A stretch of DNA of 64,000 bases from Atopobium massiliense. GTDB taxonomy: Bacteria > Actinomycetota > Coriobacteriia > Coriobacteriales > Atopobiaceae. The stretch covers positions 124,001 through 188,000 of the forward strand of contig OPYK01000001.1 in NCBI GenBank assembly GCA_900343135.1, written 5' to 3'. The translations under genes and the position numbers were made by a program. Shown here one piece after another: positions 3,901 through 11,282 of the stretch (the first letter of the stretch is position 1; every line of letters begins with the position of its first letter). Under the pieces are notes generated by a model, which was not told the origin of the DNA, made no database searches, and saw only the letters and a list, made by a program, of their open reading frames with translations.

Positions 3901-5406
3901 CTACCCGTCTATATCGTCGCACGCAGCAGCTGCTTCAACAGCCGTGGGAACATCGTCCGCGCAAACAGCAGTATCGCTGCTGCTCTCATCACAATCAAGC
4001 TCAAACGCTGCCGTGTGAGCAGCATCAAGTTCATCATCACCTGCACATTCATTGGCAAATTCCGACTCAAGATCATCTGCAGTTTCAAACGTAAACGAAT
4101 ACCCTAAAATGCGAATTTCATCACCCTTATGCGCACCCGCCTTAAGCAGGCGATCTTCGAGCTTAAGCCTGTCAAAGCGATGTTGCAAATACATAAGCGC
4201 TTCATCGTTATCCCAATCGGTTTGAATAACCATGCGCTCAATAAGCTCACCAGAAACACGCCAAATACCAGTGGATTCTTGCGCAATATGAATAATGCGC
4301 TCACGATGTTGTTGCTGGAAGCGCACGTGCTCTGCCGCTTCAAGCGAGTCTTGCGAAACGTATGCATCGATAGACGGACGAAGACGCGACACAACCTGCG
4401 CGATGGTTTCGATAGCAGCATCAACACCCATACCCGTAAGCGCAGACATTTCGATACAGTTAAACCCGTCTTGTTTGGCAGCTGCACGCAGGCGCTCTAT
4501 GGGTTTTGTATCGGTTAGCATGTCGCACTTGTTGGCAATAACAAGTTGCGTGCGCTCAGCAAGCATAGGCGCATACGCGGCAAGCTCGTTATTAATGGTG
4601 TGATAATCGGCAACAGGATCGCGACCTTCAAACCCGCCCGTCATGTCAACAACATGCAAAATAACAGCCGAGCGTTCGATATGACGTAAAAATTGATGGC
4701 CAAGACCTTTGCCGCAGCTCGCACCTTCGATAAGACCGGGCACGTCAGCAACAACAAACGATGCGCCCGAACACGCACGTACCATGCCTAAATTGGGCGT
4801 GAGCGTGGTAAAGGGATAATCGGCAATTTTTGGACGAGCAGCAGATATACGTGCAATAATAGAGCTTTTACCAACCGATGGCATGCCCACGAGCGCGGCA
4901 TCGGCAAGAAGCTTCATTTCAAGTTCAATTTCGTGTTCGCGAGCAGGCTCACCTTTTTCTGAAAAGGCAGGTGATCTACGCACCGACGTAACAAAGTGAA
5001 TGTTACCGCGACCGCCTACACCGCCTTTTGCAACAACAACTTCCATGCCTGCATGACACATATCAGCAATCACATAGAGGGGTTTTTTTGTTTTTGGATC
5101 AACTTCGCGCACAACAGTACCAAGCGGCACATCGAGAACCATGTCTTTTCCATCGCTACCCGCTTTACGTGCACCCTGACCATGCGTTCCGCGCTCAGCC
5201 TTAAAATGATGCTTAAAACGGTATGCAACCAGGGACGATACCTGCGGATTTGCACGCAAAATTATGTTTGCACCATGCCCACCGTCGCCGCCATCAGGCC
5301 CGCCTTTAGGCACGTAAGCTTCACGGCGAAATGATGTACAGCCAGCTCCGCCATCGCCGCCTTTTACAAAAATGCGACAAATATCAGTAAAGGTGTTTGT
5401 TGGCAC
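3901..5406 (-). CDS. obg: Obg family GTPase with acidic C-terminal tail
   Basis: Ribosome-associated essential GTPase. I chose the GTG at 5406 because AAAGGAGA lies six to eight bases upstream; an ATG 16 codons earlier has no such site. The product is then 501 residues: a glycine-rich OBG domain (about 1-160), a G domain with GMPSVGKS (174-181), DVPG (221-224) and NKCD (292-295), an OCT-type domain, and a last stretch of about 60 residues rich in Asp and Glu. It sits 54 bases after ecfT with no terminator between them, rather than next to rplU-rpmA as is usual, so it may partly depend on transcripts from the transporter operon. Confidence 0.95.
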   Translation of the reverse strand: MPTNTFTDICRIFVKGGDGGAGCTSFRREAYVPKGGPDGGDGGHGANIILRANPQVSSLVAYRFKHHFKAERGTHGQGARKAGSDGKDMVLDVPLGTVVREVDPKTKKPLYVIADMCHAGMEVVVAKGGVGGRGNIHFVTSVRRSPAFSEKGEPAREHEIELEMKLLADAALVGMPSVGKSSIIARISAARPKIADYPFTTLTPNLGMVRACSGASFVVADVPGLIEGASCGKGLGHQFLRHIERSAVILHVVDMTGGFEGRDPVADYHTINNELAAYAPMLAERTQLVIANKCDMLTDTKPIERLRAAAKQDGFNCIEMSALTGMGVDAAIETIAQVVSRLRPSIDAYVSQDSLEAAEHVRFQQQHRERIIHIAQESTGIWRVSGELIERMVIQTDWDNDEALMYLQHRFDRLKLEDRLLKAGAHKGDEIRILGYSFTFETADDLESEFANECAGDDELDAAHTAAFELDCDESSSDTAVCADDVPTAVEAAAACDDIDG

Positions 5407-5460
5407 AATGTCTCCTTTAAGTATTACTGCTTGTAGGTGCGCATACATACGCACATTTCA

Positions 5461-6207
5461 TTATATAAGGATTGCAGCAATAATTAAACAGCATCCAACA
5501 CTAACCAAAAGTGCATCACACAGATGTACAGGATATGTTTTTGAGCACGAGTGAGCCTGCCGCAAATAAAAGCCACGCTGCTGTGCTGCAAGGGCAATCA
5601 TATCGGCTTTTCGCACCGACACAACAAGCAAAGGCACAATAAGCGGCATCATAAGCTTGAGTTTTTTAAGAGGATTTGTGGTATCAAATTCTACCCCACG
5701 TGCTGTTTGCACATCGGTGATATGTTTCATTTCGCTCGAAAAAATGGGAACAAACCGAATTGCCGTCATGAGCGTAAACACGTAGGTGTACGGAACATGC
5801 AGGTACATAACCACACAATTGGCAAGATCTTCTAAGCGCGTAAGCGCAAAACAACACACGAGCGGCAGCGCAAAACACCACAGACGAAGTGTTGCACGCG
5901 CGCCTGTTATAAGTCCCAAATTGGTAATAAACAACGCGAGCACATCGCCATGCCTATTAAGCGCACATTGGATAATGAGCATAACCAACGATAGCCCGAT
6001 AAGCGCAGATAGCAGCGATTTAAGCTGCGAAAAAAGACCACAGCTGACGCTAGTTGCAAGAATAATAATGCAAAGTGCACCTAGCACATACAGTTTATCG
6101 GTTAAAAACGCAGCAATAATAACCGAAAATGCAAGAAGCAACTTTGCGAGAGGATGCGCACGGTGAAGCAGCGTAGTGCCAGCTGTATATTCAAAAAAAC
6201 TAGTCAT
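5461..6207 (-). CDS. ecfT: ECF transporter transmembrane subunit EcfT
   Basis: Membrane scaffold that couples the ATPase subunits of an energy-coupling-factor transporter to the substrate-binding S-component. The protein has about 248 residues with several hydrophobic helices, followed by the cytoplasmic coupling elements TARGV and AQQRG, which match the paired Ala-Arg-Gly motifs of EcfT. The ATG at 6207 follows AGAAAGGCG and overlaps the ecfA stop by eight bases, so the two are coupled. A longer frame adds 38 residues but has no ribosome site. With the two upstream genes it forms a complete dedicated ECF transporter. Confidence 0.85.
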   Translation of the reverse strand: MTSFFEYTAGTTLLHRAHPLAKLLLAFSVIIAAFLTDKLYVLGALCIIILATSVSCGLFSQLKSLLSALIGLSLVMLIIQCALNRHGDVLALFITNLGLITGARATLRLWCFALPLVCCFALTRLEDLANCVVMYLHVPYTYVFTLMTAIRFVPIFSSEMKHITDVQTARGVEFDTTNPLKKLKLMMPLIVPLLVVSVRKADMIALAAQQRGFYLRQAHSCSKTYPVHLCDALLVSVGCCLIIAAILI

Positions 6208-8149
6208 GGCACGCCTTTCTATTATGCTGCGCAGCAGTAATAACAATCTGTGCAAGCGCTGCAGCATCGTATGTGGTAGAACATGCAAGCCCGCAGGTAG
6301 TACTAAGCTGAAGCGCAACATCTACCAACAGCGGTGGGCGCAAACACGCGCGCTGGCACAGCGCATCTTGAGAAAAAATGTCGGAGATGCTTCCTTGTGC
6401 CACAAGCTCTCCATCAGCAAGCACAACCATACGTGTTGCATTGTCAAGCACCACTTCCATATCGTGACACACCATAACAACGCAGCAGCCGCGCTTGCGC
6501 AAATCTTGAACAACACGCATAACGTAGCAGCATTCAGCATAATCAAGACCGCAGGTAGGCTCATCTAAAATGAGCACCTTAGGCTCGGTAACAATTGTTG
6601 CCGCAAGTGCAACAATGTGGCGCTGTCCTGCCGATAACACAAAAGGATTTGCCTCAGGATTAAGATGTAGCTGGTGAATAACGCGCAGGCTGCGCTCACG
6701 CGCGTCTTGAGGCGTATATCCAACAAGCGTGCACGAGAGCATAACCTCATCGAGCACAGTTTCACACGAAAGCATTCTGTCGGGATTTTGAAAAAGCGTT
6801 GAAACACTGCGTGCAATCGTACTTGTTTTTACGGTGTTTGTTTTGGTGCCGTCGATGTACACGCTGCCAGAACACGGCTTCAAAAGACCATTAATTAGCT
6901 TGGTTATAGTTGTTTTACCTGCACCGTTTTGGCCAACAAGACACAAAATTTCAGATGGGTATGCCTCAAAGGAAACGTCTTTAAGCGAGTACGTGTTAGT
7001 TGGATAGGAAAACGATACATGAGAAAATTGAACTACAGGCTTATGCTCTGTGCACATTGAACCAGCTTTTGAACTTGAACGTAAGGTTGAACTGGAACTG
7101 GAACTTGAACCTGAACTTGACGTTGAACCCGGCGCGCGAGCGAATGTAGGATCCGAGTTAATTATGCGGCTGGCAAAATGAACCGTGTCATCAACACGCA
7201 CACAAAGGGGCGTATCCGCTTCAAAGCCCGCCTGTTTTACATAACGCACAAACCGCGTGGTTCGAGGATAACTAATACCAATAGCATCAAGGGTATCTAT
7301 CTGCGAAAGTACATCCGACGTTGTACCATATGCCGCAAGCGACCCTGCGTTCAGCACAGCTAAATGCGAACAAAACTCACTTAAGAGCGCCACTTTTTGC
7401 TCAATAGCAATAATCGTAATACCAAAGCTGCGATTAAGCTCACTCAAAAGCTCATAGATGGTACGCGAGGATGCAGGATCAAGCGCACAGGTGGGCTCAT
7501 CGAGCACTAATACCGAAGGCTTAAGGGCAATAATAGCAGCAAGCGCAACTTTTTGTTTTTGCCCGCCTGAAAGCGTAGCTATGGTGCGATTGCGTAAGGG
7601 TTCGATACCAATACGATGCAGTGCTTCCTCAATACGCGAAGGAATATCCCCTGCCGGCACACCAAAGTTTTCAAGACCAAACAACAGCTCGTCTTCAACA
7701 ACACTAGCAACCATTTGCGCATCGATATCCTGCATAACAAGACCAACAAAGCGCGCAATGTCGGTAAGGCTAAGCGCCTTCGTATCGTGCGAAAACAGCT
7801 GAACGGTGCCTGAGAGCTCGCCAACATAATGGTGCGGTATAGCGCCTGAAAATAAACAGGCAAGCGTAGTTTTTCCAGCACCCGAAGGCCCAATGATGCC
7901 TAAAAAATCACCGCGCTCAATCGAAAGATTAATGTGCGACAGCGCACGCGGTGCCTGCCTCGCAGCGTCTGCATAAGCAGCTGCATCAGCAGGCGAACCA
8001 TCAGCGCCGCCACCATGCTCACTACTATCGGCGCTTTCAGCTCCATCTGATGCGGCAAGCGCATAGCGAAACGACACATCATCTAACAAAAGCGCAGGAC
8101 ATGATGCATCGCAGGATGCATCATGCGAGCGCGCAGACATAGTTTCCAT
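6200..8149 (-). CDS. ecfA: ECF transporter double ATPase (EcfA1-EcfA2 fusion)
   Basis: One 649-residue chain carries both ATP-binding cassettes of the ECF motor. Domain 1 has GPSGAGKTT (87-95), LSGGQ (193-197) and DEPT (217-220); domain 2 has GQNGAGKTT (406-414), LSAGQ (505-509) and DEPT (529-532). A Ser-rich linker (about 342-360) joins them, and domain 1 carries an insertion of about 40 low-complexity residues before its Walker A. Domain 1 has Gln251 where the switch histidine is expected and domain 2 has the degenerate signature, so the composite site formed by these two halves is probably weak and the other canonical. The ATG follows AAGG and lies three bases after the S-component gene. 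Confidence 0.92.
   Translation of the reverse strand: METMSARSHDASCDASCPALLLDDVSFRYALAASDGAESADSSEHGGGADGSPADAAAYADAARQAPRALSHINLSIERGDFLGIIGPSGAGKTTLACLFSGAIPHHYVGELSGTVQLFSHDTKALSLTDIARFVGLVMQDIDAQMVASVVEDELLFGLENFGVPAGDIPSRIEEALHRIGIEPLRNRTIATLSGGQKQKVALAAIIALKPSVLVLDEPTCALDPASSRTIYELLSELNRSFGITIIAIEQKVALLSEFCSHLAVLNAGSLAAYGTTSDVLSQIDTLDAIGISYPRTTRFVRYVKQAGFEADTPLCVRVDDTVHFASRIINSDPTFARAPGSTSSSGSSSSSSSTLRSSSKAGSMCTEHKPVVQFSHVSFSYPTNTYSLKDVSFEAYPSEILCLVGQNGAGKTTITKLINGLLKPCSGSVYIDGTKTNTVKTSTIARSVSTLFQNPDRMLSCETVLDEVMLSCTLVGYTPQDARERSLRVIHQLHLNPEANPFVLSAGQRHIVALAATIVTEPKVLILDEPTCGLDYAECCYVMRVVQDLRKRGCCVVMVCHDMEVVLDNATRMVVLADGELVAQGSISDIFSQDALCQRACLRPPLLVDVALQLSTTCGLACSTTYDAAALAQIVITAAQHNRKACHD
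7072..7127. repeat. GAACTT/GAACCT hexamer-like repeat inside ecfA
   Basis: The plus strand runs through GAACTT, GAACTG and GAACCT units. The gene reads the other strand as TTCAAG and TTCAGG, which gives Ser with some Gly. Very similar units occur in yraN and in the glycosyltransferase gene at 56.6 kb, but there the coding strand carries the GAACCT sense and yields Glu-Pro. Confidence 0.7.
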
Positions 8150-8152
8150 ATA

Positions 8153-8764
8153 TTACCTTGAACGAACGGTGGCTGTTTTTGATACAACCGCATTAAGTGG
8201 ACGAATAAGCACTTCGACAACAAGTGCATTTGCAACAGCGGTGCTTACTACCAGCGGTGCCATACCTAGCAGCGCAACGGGCTCAAGCTTAAGGAAAAAC
8301 AAAACCGCGCAGGTTGCAAAAATAAAACCGGAAATAAGCGTAGTTACAAAGGTGAGTGCTGCAGGAACAATCGGCTTTAAGCTGTGTTTACCAAACGCAC
8401 TAATAGCAAGCGCACAAATTGCAGCAGCGGGAATATCGCACACAAACTCAAGACCAGGAATTGACGTGTTAAGCTGAATGAGCGCAGCAGCAAGCAATCC
8501 AACAATAGCCGCTTGGTGAAACTTAAGACGCAATAAAAGCAGTGCAAGGCAGTAGGACGAAATAATAAACTCAGGCTGAATACCGGTAATAGCAAGCGCT
8601 TTTCCAACAGTAAAGTCAAGAATAAACCCTGCTGCAAGCAGTACTGCAACAATGGTAAGCGATGCAATGTCGATGCTCGATTTTTTAACGGTTGTGCTGC
8701 CAGGTACAGGTGTTGTAGCGACGTTTGTAGTAGCAGTTGTGGTTTCAAATGATTGAGAAGACAT
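8153..8764 (-). CDS. trpP: ECF S-component, probable tryptophan transporter TrpP
   Basis: A 203-residue membrane protein with a Thr/Ser-rich N-terminus (about 1-30) and roughly six hydrophobic segments. Patterns such as IQPEFIISSY and the N-terminal hydrophobic LLAAGFIL resemble the TrpP family of tryptophan transporters. It is followed at once by its own ATPase and EcfT genes, as expected for an S-component. The regulatory sequence upstream encodes three consecutive Trp codons in an attenuator, which independently points to tryptophan as substrate. The start has an AAGGAG site five bases upstream. Membrane S-component is secure; tryptophan specificity is inferred. Confidence 0.75.
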   Translation of the reverse strand: MSSQSFETTTATTNVATTPVPGSTTVKKSSIDIASLTIVAVLLAAGFILDFTVGKALAITGIQPEFIISSYCLALLLLRLKFHQAAIVGLLAAALIQLNTSIPGLEFVCDIPAAAICALAISAFGKHSLKPIVPAALTFVTTLISGFIFATCAVLFFLKLEPVALLGMAPLVVSTAVANALVVEVLIRPLNAVVSKTATVRSR

Positions 8765-8904
8765 GGTAACTCCTTAAAACTCAAGTTATGGTGTGTGCTT
8801 TGATTTACACCGATATGGTCGCGGGCGCGAAAAAATACAATATGCAAACCAAAGGACAACAGATACGGAACGTACGTGCAAAAAAATAGGACGCAAAAAA
8901 TCAT

Positions 8905-8937
8905 AAAAAAGGACTTTCAAAGTTACTCTGAAAGTCC
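8905..8937 (-). terminator. Attenuator terminator of the trpP-ecf operon
   Basis: On the minus strand a perfect 9-bp stem, GGACTTTCA with TGAAAGTCC around a 9-base loop, is followed directly by six T residues. It lies between the Trp leader peptide and the transporter genes, so it would stop transcription before them. Its 5' arm overlaps the antiterminator pairing. Confidence 0.92.
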
Positions 8938-8966
8938 GCACAAATCATGGATGTGTGTATCAGAGT
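8925..8966 (-). promoter_or_regulatory. Antiterminator pairing of the Trp attenuator
   Basis: ACTCTGA, which begins two bases after the leader stop codon, is exactly complementary to TCAGAGT at 8925-8931. This 7-bp helix would consume the 5' arm and loop of the terminator, so the two structures exclude each other. A ribosome stalled at the Trp codons would leave ACTCTGA free to pair; a ribosome reaching the stop codon would cover it and allow termination. Confidence 0.85.
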
Positions 8967-8967
8967 C

Positions 8968-9042
8968 CTATGAAATTGTACGCCACCACCATGCGCAAAA
9001 CTGTGATGAGTATGAAACGACGCGAGCATTTTGAGCAATCAT
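8968..9042 (-). CDS. Tryptophan attenuator leader peptide, 24 residues
   Basis: A short open frame of 24 codons and a TAG stop, ending in CAWWWRTIS, with TGG-TGG-TGG at codons 18-20. It has a strong ribosome site (AAGGAGGT) six bases before the ATG. The stop is two bases before the antiterminator arm, the spacing needed for a ribosome stalled on Trp codons to decide between the two hairpins. Three tandem Trp codons in 24 are far beyond chance. Its role is to sense charged tRNA-Trp; the peptide itself need have no function. Confidence 0.92.
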   Translation of the reverse strand: MIAQNARVVSYSSQFCAWWWRTIS

Positions 9043-9105
9043 GGTGACCTCCTTGAACGTTGAGTTGTGTTCTCTACGCTGTAGTAAATCACATCAACAC
9101 GCACA

Positions 9106-9134
9106 ATGCTATGGAGTTGTGGTTTGTTTATCAA
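9106..9134 (-). promoter_or_regulatory. Promoter for the trpP-ecf attenuated operon
   Basis: TTGATA and TAGCAT are separated by exactly 17 bases on the minus strand. The start point would be near 9099, leaving about 57 bases of leader before the Trp leader peptide. Confidence 0.65.
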
Positions 9135-9161
9135 GTTGAAACAAAAACGTGCAAATTCTCG

Positions 9162-10496
9162 CTAGCTAAATTTACGCCACTCGGGATCGCTAATAATACG
9201 TGCCACGATAAGACCAAGTGGCAGCGCTAACACGATAAGCAGCGATTCCAAAAACCAGTGCGAGCCGGTGGGAATATTAAGCGAGCCAAAGCTATACATC
9301 GCGCGATACATATACAAACCGGGAACCATAATAACAATCGACGGCACGGTAAGAGCAATGCGAGGAAAACCAATGCGTTTGCGTACAAAAGATGCCATCA
9401 TGCCTGCTATAAGCGCGCCGATAAATGCGGCAATACAGGCAGGAACAAGTGTCCACGATACAAGACTAAGGCGGATAGTATTGGCTACGGCGCCAATGGC
9501 AGCCGTGAGCATAGCCATTTTGCATTCGGTATTAAACATAATCGAAAAGCCAAATACACCACACCAGCTAGTAATAAGACGAAGAATGGTAAGGGTGAGT
9601 GGCGTTAAGCCTGCAAGCGGAATAAGATCGTGCGGCTGCAAATTAAGAGCAAGGGCGCATGTCCACCCTACCACCGTTGCAACAACGATAATAATAAGCG
9701 CGTATACTAGCCGCTCAATACCAGAGCGCATGTCTAGCTTTGCTAAGTCGAGACCAGCAGTAATAAAAGGAAAGCCTGGAATAACAAAAAGCAGCGCACC
9801 AATGTACCCTTCAAGGTGAGGACCTGCTGGATGAAGGCACATCATAAGCAGCGTATGCACCAGAACATATACCACGCACGCCGAAGCAACACCGCCTGCT
9901 ACCTGGGCAATAAGGGTAATTTTGTGATCGATAAGCTTGCGGCGCACATAATTACCCACGGCTGCGCCAAAAAAGCAGCAAATCATCTCGTAAATGCCCG
10001 CACCAAGCAAAAAGATAAAGCCTGCACACGCAAGCCCCGATGCAAACGCCACTTGAAGGGCACTATAATTAAGCGGCAAATGTTCAACATCATCAAGCTG
10101 CTCGATAAACTCGCCCAACGTGTAAGTATCAGCATTGGCAACAAAGCGGTCGACAAACAATTCCATTTGATGCAGCTTTGAGGTGTTAACACCTGTTGTG
10201 GCAAGGCTGAGCGCCTGCGTGTAGCTATGTCCTTCGTCGTCGATGCACGTGTAATCGAGCGACACAAGGCCAATATCAGCGCTGCACGTAAGGTTGAGTA
10301 CGCGCGCGATAGCGTTCATACTTTGGCGCACGCGCCAAGCTCCTGTGCCGTACGACAAAAGCATCATGCCCACATGTCCCACAATCGACGCACGCTCGTG
10401 AAAACGCAGATGCTTCATGGGGCACGAAGGATTACTGTCGAGCAAATTATGCCAGCGAATATGCATGTGATGATGGTGCGATACATGAGATGTCAT
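9162..10496 (-). CDS. ThrE-family threonine/serine exporter-like protein
   Basis: The first half is a soluble domain of the DUF1212 type (GTGAWRV, then DIGL) ending at the first membrane segment near residue 170; the rest holds about ten hydrophobic segments, including IPGFPFITAGLDLA and the VPSIVIMVPGLYMYRAMY segment typical of the second ThrE half. Members export threonine and serine by proton exchange; the substrate here is not shown. The N-terminus is His-rich (HHHHMH). I chose the ATG at 10496; a weak AGAAGGG lies rather far upstream. An upstream GTG falls inside the rpmA terminator and is unlikely. Confidence 0.8.
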   Translation of the reverse strand: MTSHVSHHHHMHIRWHNLLDSNPSCPMKHLRFHERASIVGHVGMMLLSYGTGAWRVRQSMNAIARVLNLTCSADIGLVSLDYTCIDDEGHSYTQALSLATTGVNTSKLHQMELFVDRFVANADTYTLGEFIEQLDDVEHLPLNYSALQVAFASGLACAGFIFLLGAGIYEMICCFFGAAVGNYVRRKLIDHKITLIAQVAGGVASACVVYVLVHTLLMMCLHPAGPHLEGYIGALLFVIPGFPFITAGLDLAKLDMRSGIERLVYALIIIVVATVVGWTCALALNLQPHDLIPLAGLTPLTLTILRLITSWCGVFGFSIMFNTECKMAMLTAAIGAVANTIRLSLVSWTLVPACIAAFIGALIAGMMASFVRKRIGFPRIALTVPSIVIMVPGLYMYRAMYSFGSLNIPTGSHWFLESLLIVLALPLGLIVARIISDPEWRKFS

Positions 10497-10537
10497 AACT
10501 ACACTAAATGCCCTTCTATATTCCCTTCCACTATCAT

Positions 10538-10569
10538 TAAAAAAACCGCTCACCGGATGGTAAGCGGTT
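10538..10569 (-). terminator. Terminator of rplU-rpmA
   Basis: On the minus strand AACCGCTTACC pairs with GGTGAGCGGTT (one T-G wobble) across ATCC, followed by a run of T residues. It lies just after the rpmA stop. Confidence 0.9.
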
Positions 10570-10592
10570 GTTTACGTGCTATAACGCAACTG

Positions 10593-10841
10593 TTATGCGG
10601 TGCGAACGTGTACATAGTGCTTAGCACCACGAACAAATTCTACAACACCATCTTTAAGTGCAAACAGCGTGTCGTCTTTACCACGGCCAACGTTTTCGCC
10701 AGGAGTAATATGCGTACCACGTTGACGAACGATGATTTGACCAGCCTTAATAGATTGACCACCGTATACCTTGGTGCCAAGACGCTGTGCGTTGGAATCG
10801 CGTCCGTTACGAGATGATCCCAAACCTTTCTTGTGAGCCAT
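10593..10841 (-). CDS. rpmA: 50S ribosomal protein L27
   Basis: Large-subunit protein near the peptidyl-transferase centre. The 82-residue sequence begins [16 protein letters not shown] and contains [14 protein letters not shown], both standard for L27, at the normal length. It follows rplU by 47 bases and is closed by a strong terminator. The N-terminus lacks the cleavable extension seen in Firmicutes. Confidence 0.98.
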
Positions 10842-10888
10842 GTTTTACCTACCTTCGTAATCGTTATCTAACAAATGAGCAATAACCG

Positions 10889-11242
10889 TTATGCTTCGTC
10901 TTGTGCTGTGTCAGCTTTTTTTGCTGCTGCACGAGTGGTGGGCATGCTCGAAACCATAAGCTTGGTGAGGTTTTGACGGTGACCACGAGTGCGGTGATAG
11001 CGCTTACGCTTTTTAAGTTTAAAGACGATAACCTTTTTATCTTTGTATTGATCGAGAACTTCGCATGTGACTTTCTTTTTTGCTAAGGTAGCAGCATCAA
11101 CGATAGTTTTTTTGCCGTCGTTAAGCAAAAGAACGTCAAGTTTAACCTTGTCGCCAGGCTGCGCGTCGAGCTTCTCAACACTAAAGATATCGCCCTTGGC
11201 AACCTTATACTGCTTGCCACCAGTGGTAACGATTGCGTACAT
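10889..11242 (-). CDS. rplU: 50S ribosomal protein L21
   Basis: Large-subunit protein, first gene of the rplU-rpmA pair. The start is the ATG at 11242 after GAAGGGTAG, giving MYAIVTTGGKQYKV; the open frame extends six codons further without a ribosome site. The 117-residue product contains the expected KRKRYHRTRGHRQ segment and then a C-terminal tail of about 15 residues rich in Ala, Lys and Asp, slightly longer than the usual protein of about 103 residues. Confidence 0.97.
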   Translation of the reverse strand: MYAIVTTGGKQYKVAKGDIFSVEKLDAQPGDKVKLDVLLLNDGKKTIVDAATLAKKKVTCEVLDQYKDKKVIVFKLKKRKRYHRTRGHRQNLTKLMVSSMPTTRAAAKKADTAQDEA

Positions 11243-11282
11243 GTGTCTACCCTTCATCATTAATTGTGTACAACAGCTCTAC

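Follow-up and report, generated by a model that had tools for sequence, protein, structure and literature searches.

In the 64,000-nucleotide stretch of the Atopobium massiliense genome analysed here (the window), a transporter operon and a gene for a ThrE-like exporter lie on the minus strand between rplU-rpmA and obgE (3901–11260). A single operon encodes the S-component, both ECF ATPase domains and EcfT of an ECF transporter with a dedicated module; a preliminary description made from the sequence had named the double ATPase and EcfT, and both are borne out by family assignment (TIGR04520, TIGR04521 and PF02361). An intrinsic terminator sits between a short leader ORF and the structural gene, and the parts of the attenuator are all on the minus strand, at 9054–8905 (Table 1). 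The window has a single S gene; many relatives' operons carry two tandem TrpP-like S genes. At the other end, obgE follows close behind the EcfT gene, and read-through of the attenuator might also affect the ObgE GTPase unless obgE has a promoter of its own.

Table 1. Leader elements and transporter genes, with positions counted along the window.
Feature	Position	Strand	Basis
Candidate promoter, TTGATA-17-TAGCAT	9106–9134	−	9/12 in the consensus scan, which does not exceed shuffles; not established
Shine-Dalgarno sequence, AAGGAGGT	9047–9054	−	Sequence; 4 bases 5′ of the ATG
Leader peptide ORF, MIAQNARVVSYSSQFCAWWWRTIS, 24 aa, ATG 9042 to TAG 8968	8968–9042	−	Sequence; WWW leaders conserved before orthologues
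Three consecutive Trp codons (TGG), TGGTGGTGG	8983–8991	−	Sequence
Antiterminator 5′ arm, ACTCTGA	8960–8966	−	Sequence; folding with stalled ribosome
Antiterminator 3′ arm, TCAGAGT, within terminator 5′ arm and loop	8925–8931	−	Sequence; folding
Intrinsic terminator hairpin, 12 pairs (one G-U), loop TAA	8911–8937	−	Terminator scan, folding
Terminator T-run, TTTTTT (six T)	8905–8910	−	Sequence, terminator scan
S-component (TrpP-like), 203 aa	8153–8764	−	Relatives match PF17099; predicted S-component fold; no direct family match
Fused double ECF ATPase, 649 aa	6200–8149	−	PF00005 twice; TIGR04520 and TIGR04521 above cut-off
EcfT transmembrane component, 248 aa	5461–6207	−	PF02361 (CbiQ)

The ribosome site, the 24-residue leader and its three consecutive tryptophan codons are present as the preliminary description had it, and so is the 7-bp antiterminator just past the leader stop codon (TAG, 8970–8968, minus strand); its 5′ arm begins at the second base after this codon, and ACTCTGA and TCAGAGT form 7 of 7 Watson-Crick pairs. 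TCAGAGT comprises the upper part of the terminator's 5′ arm together with one base of the loop; because antiterminator and terminator share positions 8931–8925, the two stems are mutually exclusive. Judged by sequence and folding, the antiterminator 5′ arm would be left free by a ribosome stalled on the Trp codons and covered by one that has reached the stop. The terminator with its T-run, exclusive with the antiterminator, had also been described correctly apart from the stem, which was put at 9 bp and for which the scanning tool counts 12 pairs. The leader RNA folds with z = −2.78, and 1 of 200 shuffles folds equally well; a search with Rfam models found neither a T-box (RF00230) nor any other Rfam element in the window's leader. 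The promoter that had been claimed is not established: shuffled DNA yields 1.3 promoter matches on average and the match TTGATA-17-TAGCAT is no rarer, so that the transcript could also start upstream.

In the window, TGGTGGTGG is found twice, against 0.21 expected. Over the 1.55-Mb genome there are 23 sites, the same number as for the reversed control pattern (10+13 vs 8+15), and among these 23 only the copy at 8991 sits within a short ORF that has a ribosome site and is followed by a T-run.

The element in the window is very probably a ribosome-mediated attenuator through which a shortage of charged tRNA-Trp switches on a tryptophan importer of the ECF type. Under scarcity, a ribosome would stall at the three Trp codons, leaving the stretch past the leader stop free to pair, as antiterminator, with the terminator's 5′ half; polymerase would then read on into the genes for S, the double ATPase and T. 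With charged tRNA-Trp available, the ribosome would reach the stop codon and cover the stretch past it, the terminator would form and the pump would not be made. Stalling, read-through and the transport of tryptophan are what we infer.

A comparison with relatives, proposed in the preliminary description as a check on the Trp codons and the pairings, shows WWW leaders with terminator and antiterminator before orthologous S genes across the Coriobacteriia, and the claim withstood this check. In oriented upstream regions, a WWW leader is present in 20 of 25 relatives and at two further Olsenella loci; close to the stop these leaders carry the motif NWWWR-x(5)-GR, and most of their terminators are of the form GGCTCCCGG-TTTGACCGGGAGCC-TTTTT. 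When 23 leaders were folded from just past the Trp codons, a long antiterminator usually resulted, in which CGGUCGA...GAGUC pairs with GGCUC...UUGACCG; a fold begun beyond the stop codon, corresponding to a ribosome at the stop, leaves the top hairpin of the terminator, L050 being an exception. RNA pairing thus accounts for the conserved GR at the end of the leader peptide. The 5′ arm of the antiterminator lies across the stop codon in the relatives and just behind it in the window. Pairing of the 5′ arms with their own terminators has a mean of −23.0 kcal/mol versus −20.5 kcal/mol when swapped, with 3 of 20,000 permutations as good and with relatedness still contained in the comparison; of all the terminators, it is its own with which the window's 5′ arm pairs best.

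Covariation was assessed in 35 gapless leader/terminator segments from a close family. There, the outer helix is paired in 91.4% of cells versus at most 46% when slid, and its covariation is modestly above that of shuffles (8 of 500 reach the score); covariation of the full antiterminator in the same segments is not above that of column shuffles (82.1% paired, equal to shuffled; few double changes). The antiterminator appears to be well supported, by conservation and by divergent members and not by formal covariation.

A covariance model built from the leaders of 20 relatives was searched against 398 Coriobacteriia genomes; 128 of these contain strong matches (E ≤ 6.3e-8), 130 in all. By coordinates, 116 of the matches are located within 1.5 kb 5′ of an S gene (median 124 bases), and four more (G263, G358, G122 and G211) were placed before an S gene by inspection, which gives a total of at least 120. 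Seven strong matches, all in genus g62, precede an NSS-family transporter that is a candidate tryptophan symporter (PF00209 in the three loci scanned; the others were assigned by a near-identical start sequence), and three are unplaced, at contig ends or with unlisted coordinates. None of the strong matches in the Coriobacteriia genomes was seen before trpE. Three weaker matches are WWW leaders before TrpB-like enzymes, two of which (at L121 and L127) match NF009057 and TIGR01415 while the third (L128) is assigned from its start sequence only; this suggests that WWW leaders control indole salvage as well. As further targets, the NSS transporter and the TrpB-like enzymes fit the reading as a tryptophan attenuator. 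In genome G041 the S gene is found about 1.6 kb past the WWW leader, and the sequence between them reads like a TrpB-like enzyme. Against the model built from relatives, the window's own copy scores low (13.1 bits, E 0.065), but it is still the sole match in the window. In a phylum-wide sample, no strong matches were found outside the Coriobacteriia. Three weak matches outside the class were rejected, as the sequence shown for them contains no WWW leader and they resemble simple terminators; seven weak matches within the class are likewise without a WWW leader.

In sister lineages the transporter operon is preceded by a T-box. Of 30 further S-operon loci, three (L130, L131, L139) have a WWW leader and the other 27 of 27 a T-box motif upstream of S; with two cases beyond the 30 (L057, L059), the T-box loci are L057, L059, L132–L138 and L140–L159. 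They were found by motif and relaxed scan, a T-box scan at gathering score missing most Coriobacteriia T-boxes. UGG specifiers are visible in many of these T-boxes, and alignment confirms two (L142, L159). Since the S operon carries, depending on the lineage, Trp leader codons or UGG T-boxes, tryptophan is independently backed as the signal.

A maximum-likelihood tree built from 54 S proteins sets the leader clade apart from the T-box clade; G041, G038 and G122 carry a leader though they are inside the T-box clade, and branches with good support require a minimum of four changes between leader and T-box. The window's S protein forms the longest branch. One T-box genome, G357, is a member of the family to which the window belongs; its S protein groups within family f2, which is the placement that transfer of the entire operon would give. 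Before the S gene of the pair G036/G006 (L039, L040), a terminator with the family sequence is found and the WWW leader is gone; there the attenuator has apparently either degenerated or turned constitutive.

The source genome also encodes a complete trpEGDCFBA operon (L068:4842–11948, on contig C9 of G000), with a T-box upstream of it (L068:4431–4708; RF00230, 93.7 bits) whose specifier position is UGG, within CAAAUGGACC. Eight other trpE genes were found in relatives, all eight with a T-box motif just upstream, and the specifier is UGG in all three trpE T-boxes aligned (L069, L070, L071). A TPP riboswitch (L069:2809–2916, minus strand) is located near the trp operon T-box of genome G028. Synthesis and uptake thus appear each to be tied to tRNA-Trp in the source genome, by two different devices. 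The earlier statement that uptake, and not synthesis, is regulated fits the window element and falls short for the genome, where synthesis would be controlled too, by the separate UGG T-box.

For the substrate, the evidence comes from relatives. The window's S protein, which the preliminary description called TrpP-like, has itself no meaningful match in Pfam, NCBIfam or PDB sequences; its relatives (34–55% identical) match TrpP over almost the entire length. TrpP (PF17099) is the only Pfam family matched in the S alignment, by 17 of 27 members (17 of 26 relatives, the window protein being none of them), and it is matched at S genes in 19 of the 60 genomes searched, in eight of them above the curated cut-off. 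The predicted structure of the S protein (mean pLDDT 84) resembles RibU, ThiT and BioY with TM of about 0.5–0.6, and in Foldseek the best probabilities are 0.9–1.0, yet with no significant E-value. The kinship with TrpP accordingly runs through a chain of homology, with tryptophan as the presumed substrate. An attenuator working as described might instead control a pump for a relative of tryptophan, be it an indole compound or another aromatic amino acid. The missing family match of the window's protein would allow for this, as would a fold that matches RibU, ThiT and BioY equally loosely, so that the substrate is unreadable from it; and in C. glutamicum a different protein named TrpP proved not to be a simple tryptophan transporter (PMC11995493). 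Still, such a cargo is unlikely, considering the near full-length TrpP matches with eight genomes above the cut-off, and the Trp leader codons or UGG T-boxes on the operon, which point to tryptophan itself.

Two other explanations concern the leader. The Trp residues are near the C-terminus of a short peptide, as would befit a TnaC-type arrest peptide, responsive to free tryptophan and not to codon starvation; but there are three Trp codons in tandem, the rest of the peptide is variable in relatives, the conservation at its end follows the RNA pairing, and an importer induced by excess tryptophan makes little sense, all of which leaves this explanation with hardly any credit. Somewhat less remote, though improbable, is that the window's copy is a decaying attenuator which no longer responds; its low score against the family model and the G036/G006 pair, which has lost the leader yet keeps the family terminator, would be in line with decay, whereas the parts in the window are all intact and its altered terminator is matched by an antiterminator that pairs with it.

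For the Coriobacteriia as a whole, we lean towards a scheme in which tryptophan synthesis is under a UGG T-box and tryptophan acquisition (ECF TrpP, NSS symporter, TrpB-like salvage) is under WWW attenuators, with the attenuator as a cassette that would have been swapped with the T-box at the transporter operon at least four times, in either direction. If this is true, classical tryptophan attenuation extends from biosynthesis to uptake and salvage, and a divergent S-component family becomes tied to tryptophan in host-associated bacteria. It would also provide a natural side-by-side of two tRNA-Trp sensors, in two operons of one genome and at one operon in sister lineages, by which the consequences of sensor placement (speed, threshold, translation dependence) become directly testable.

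In Actinobacteria, leader-peptide attenuators for tryptophan are known before trp operons and trpS, as described in the consulted portion of a study of actinobacterial attenuators (PMC1262725), which does not name the lineages treated here. Those of Corynebacterium and Streptomyces resemble the present element in having two or three tandem UGG codons, an antiterminator overlapping the terminator, and a T-run; according to the same portion their targets are trp operons and trpS, whereas here the target is an ECF transporter operon and synthesis is under a T-box (PMC1262725). The trpP gene (yhaG) of B. subtilis is likewise a regulated tryptophan uptake gene of the TrpP family, but it is controlled at translation by TRAP, which blocks it, and not by leader peptide and terminator as here (PMC11255114). 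Tryptophan T-box leaders (RF00230) also sense the charging of tRNA-Trp and are found here on the trp operons and on transporter operons of sister lineages; unlike them, the window element is without T-box features. Genes that bear a T-box in some lineages and a leader peptide in others are a recognised pattern, known from hisS and others (PMC2965389), and in some Peptostreptococcaceae a histidine transporter is under a T-box and histidine synthesis under an attenuator (PMC9413887). As in these cases, one gene has a different RNA sensor depending on the lineage (PMC2965389, PMC9413887); with the attenuator on uptake and the T-box on synthesis, the arrangement for tryptophan is the mirror image of the histidine split in the Peptostreptococcaceae (PMC9413887). 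Among open-access papers we found none that reports a leader attenuator for tryptophan in Coriobacteriia or before ECF transporter genes; subscription papers lie outside that search, and priority is unproven. Tryptophan attenuators and T-box/leader swaps are thus known as such; a tryptophan attenuator on a presumed ECF tryptophan importer, split from T-box-controlled synthesis, does not seem to have been described in the literature covered. The element is classical by its anatomy, and what sets it apart is its target and its partition from T-box-controlled synthesis.
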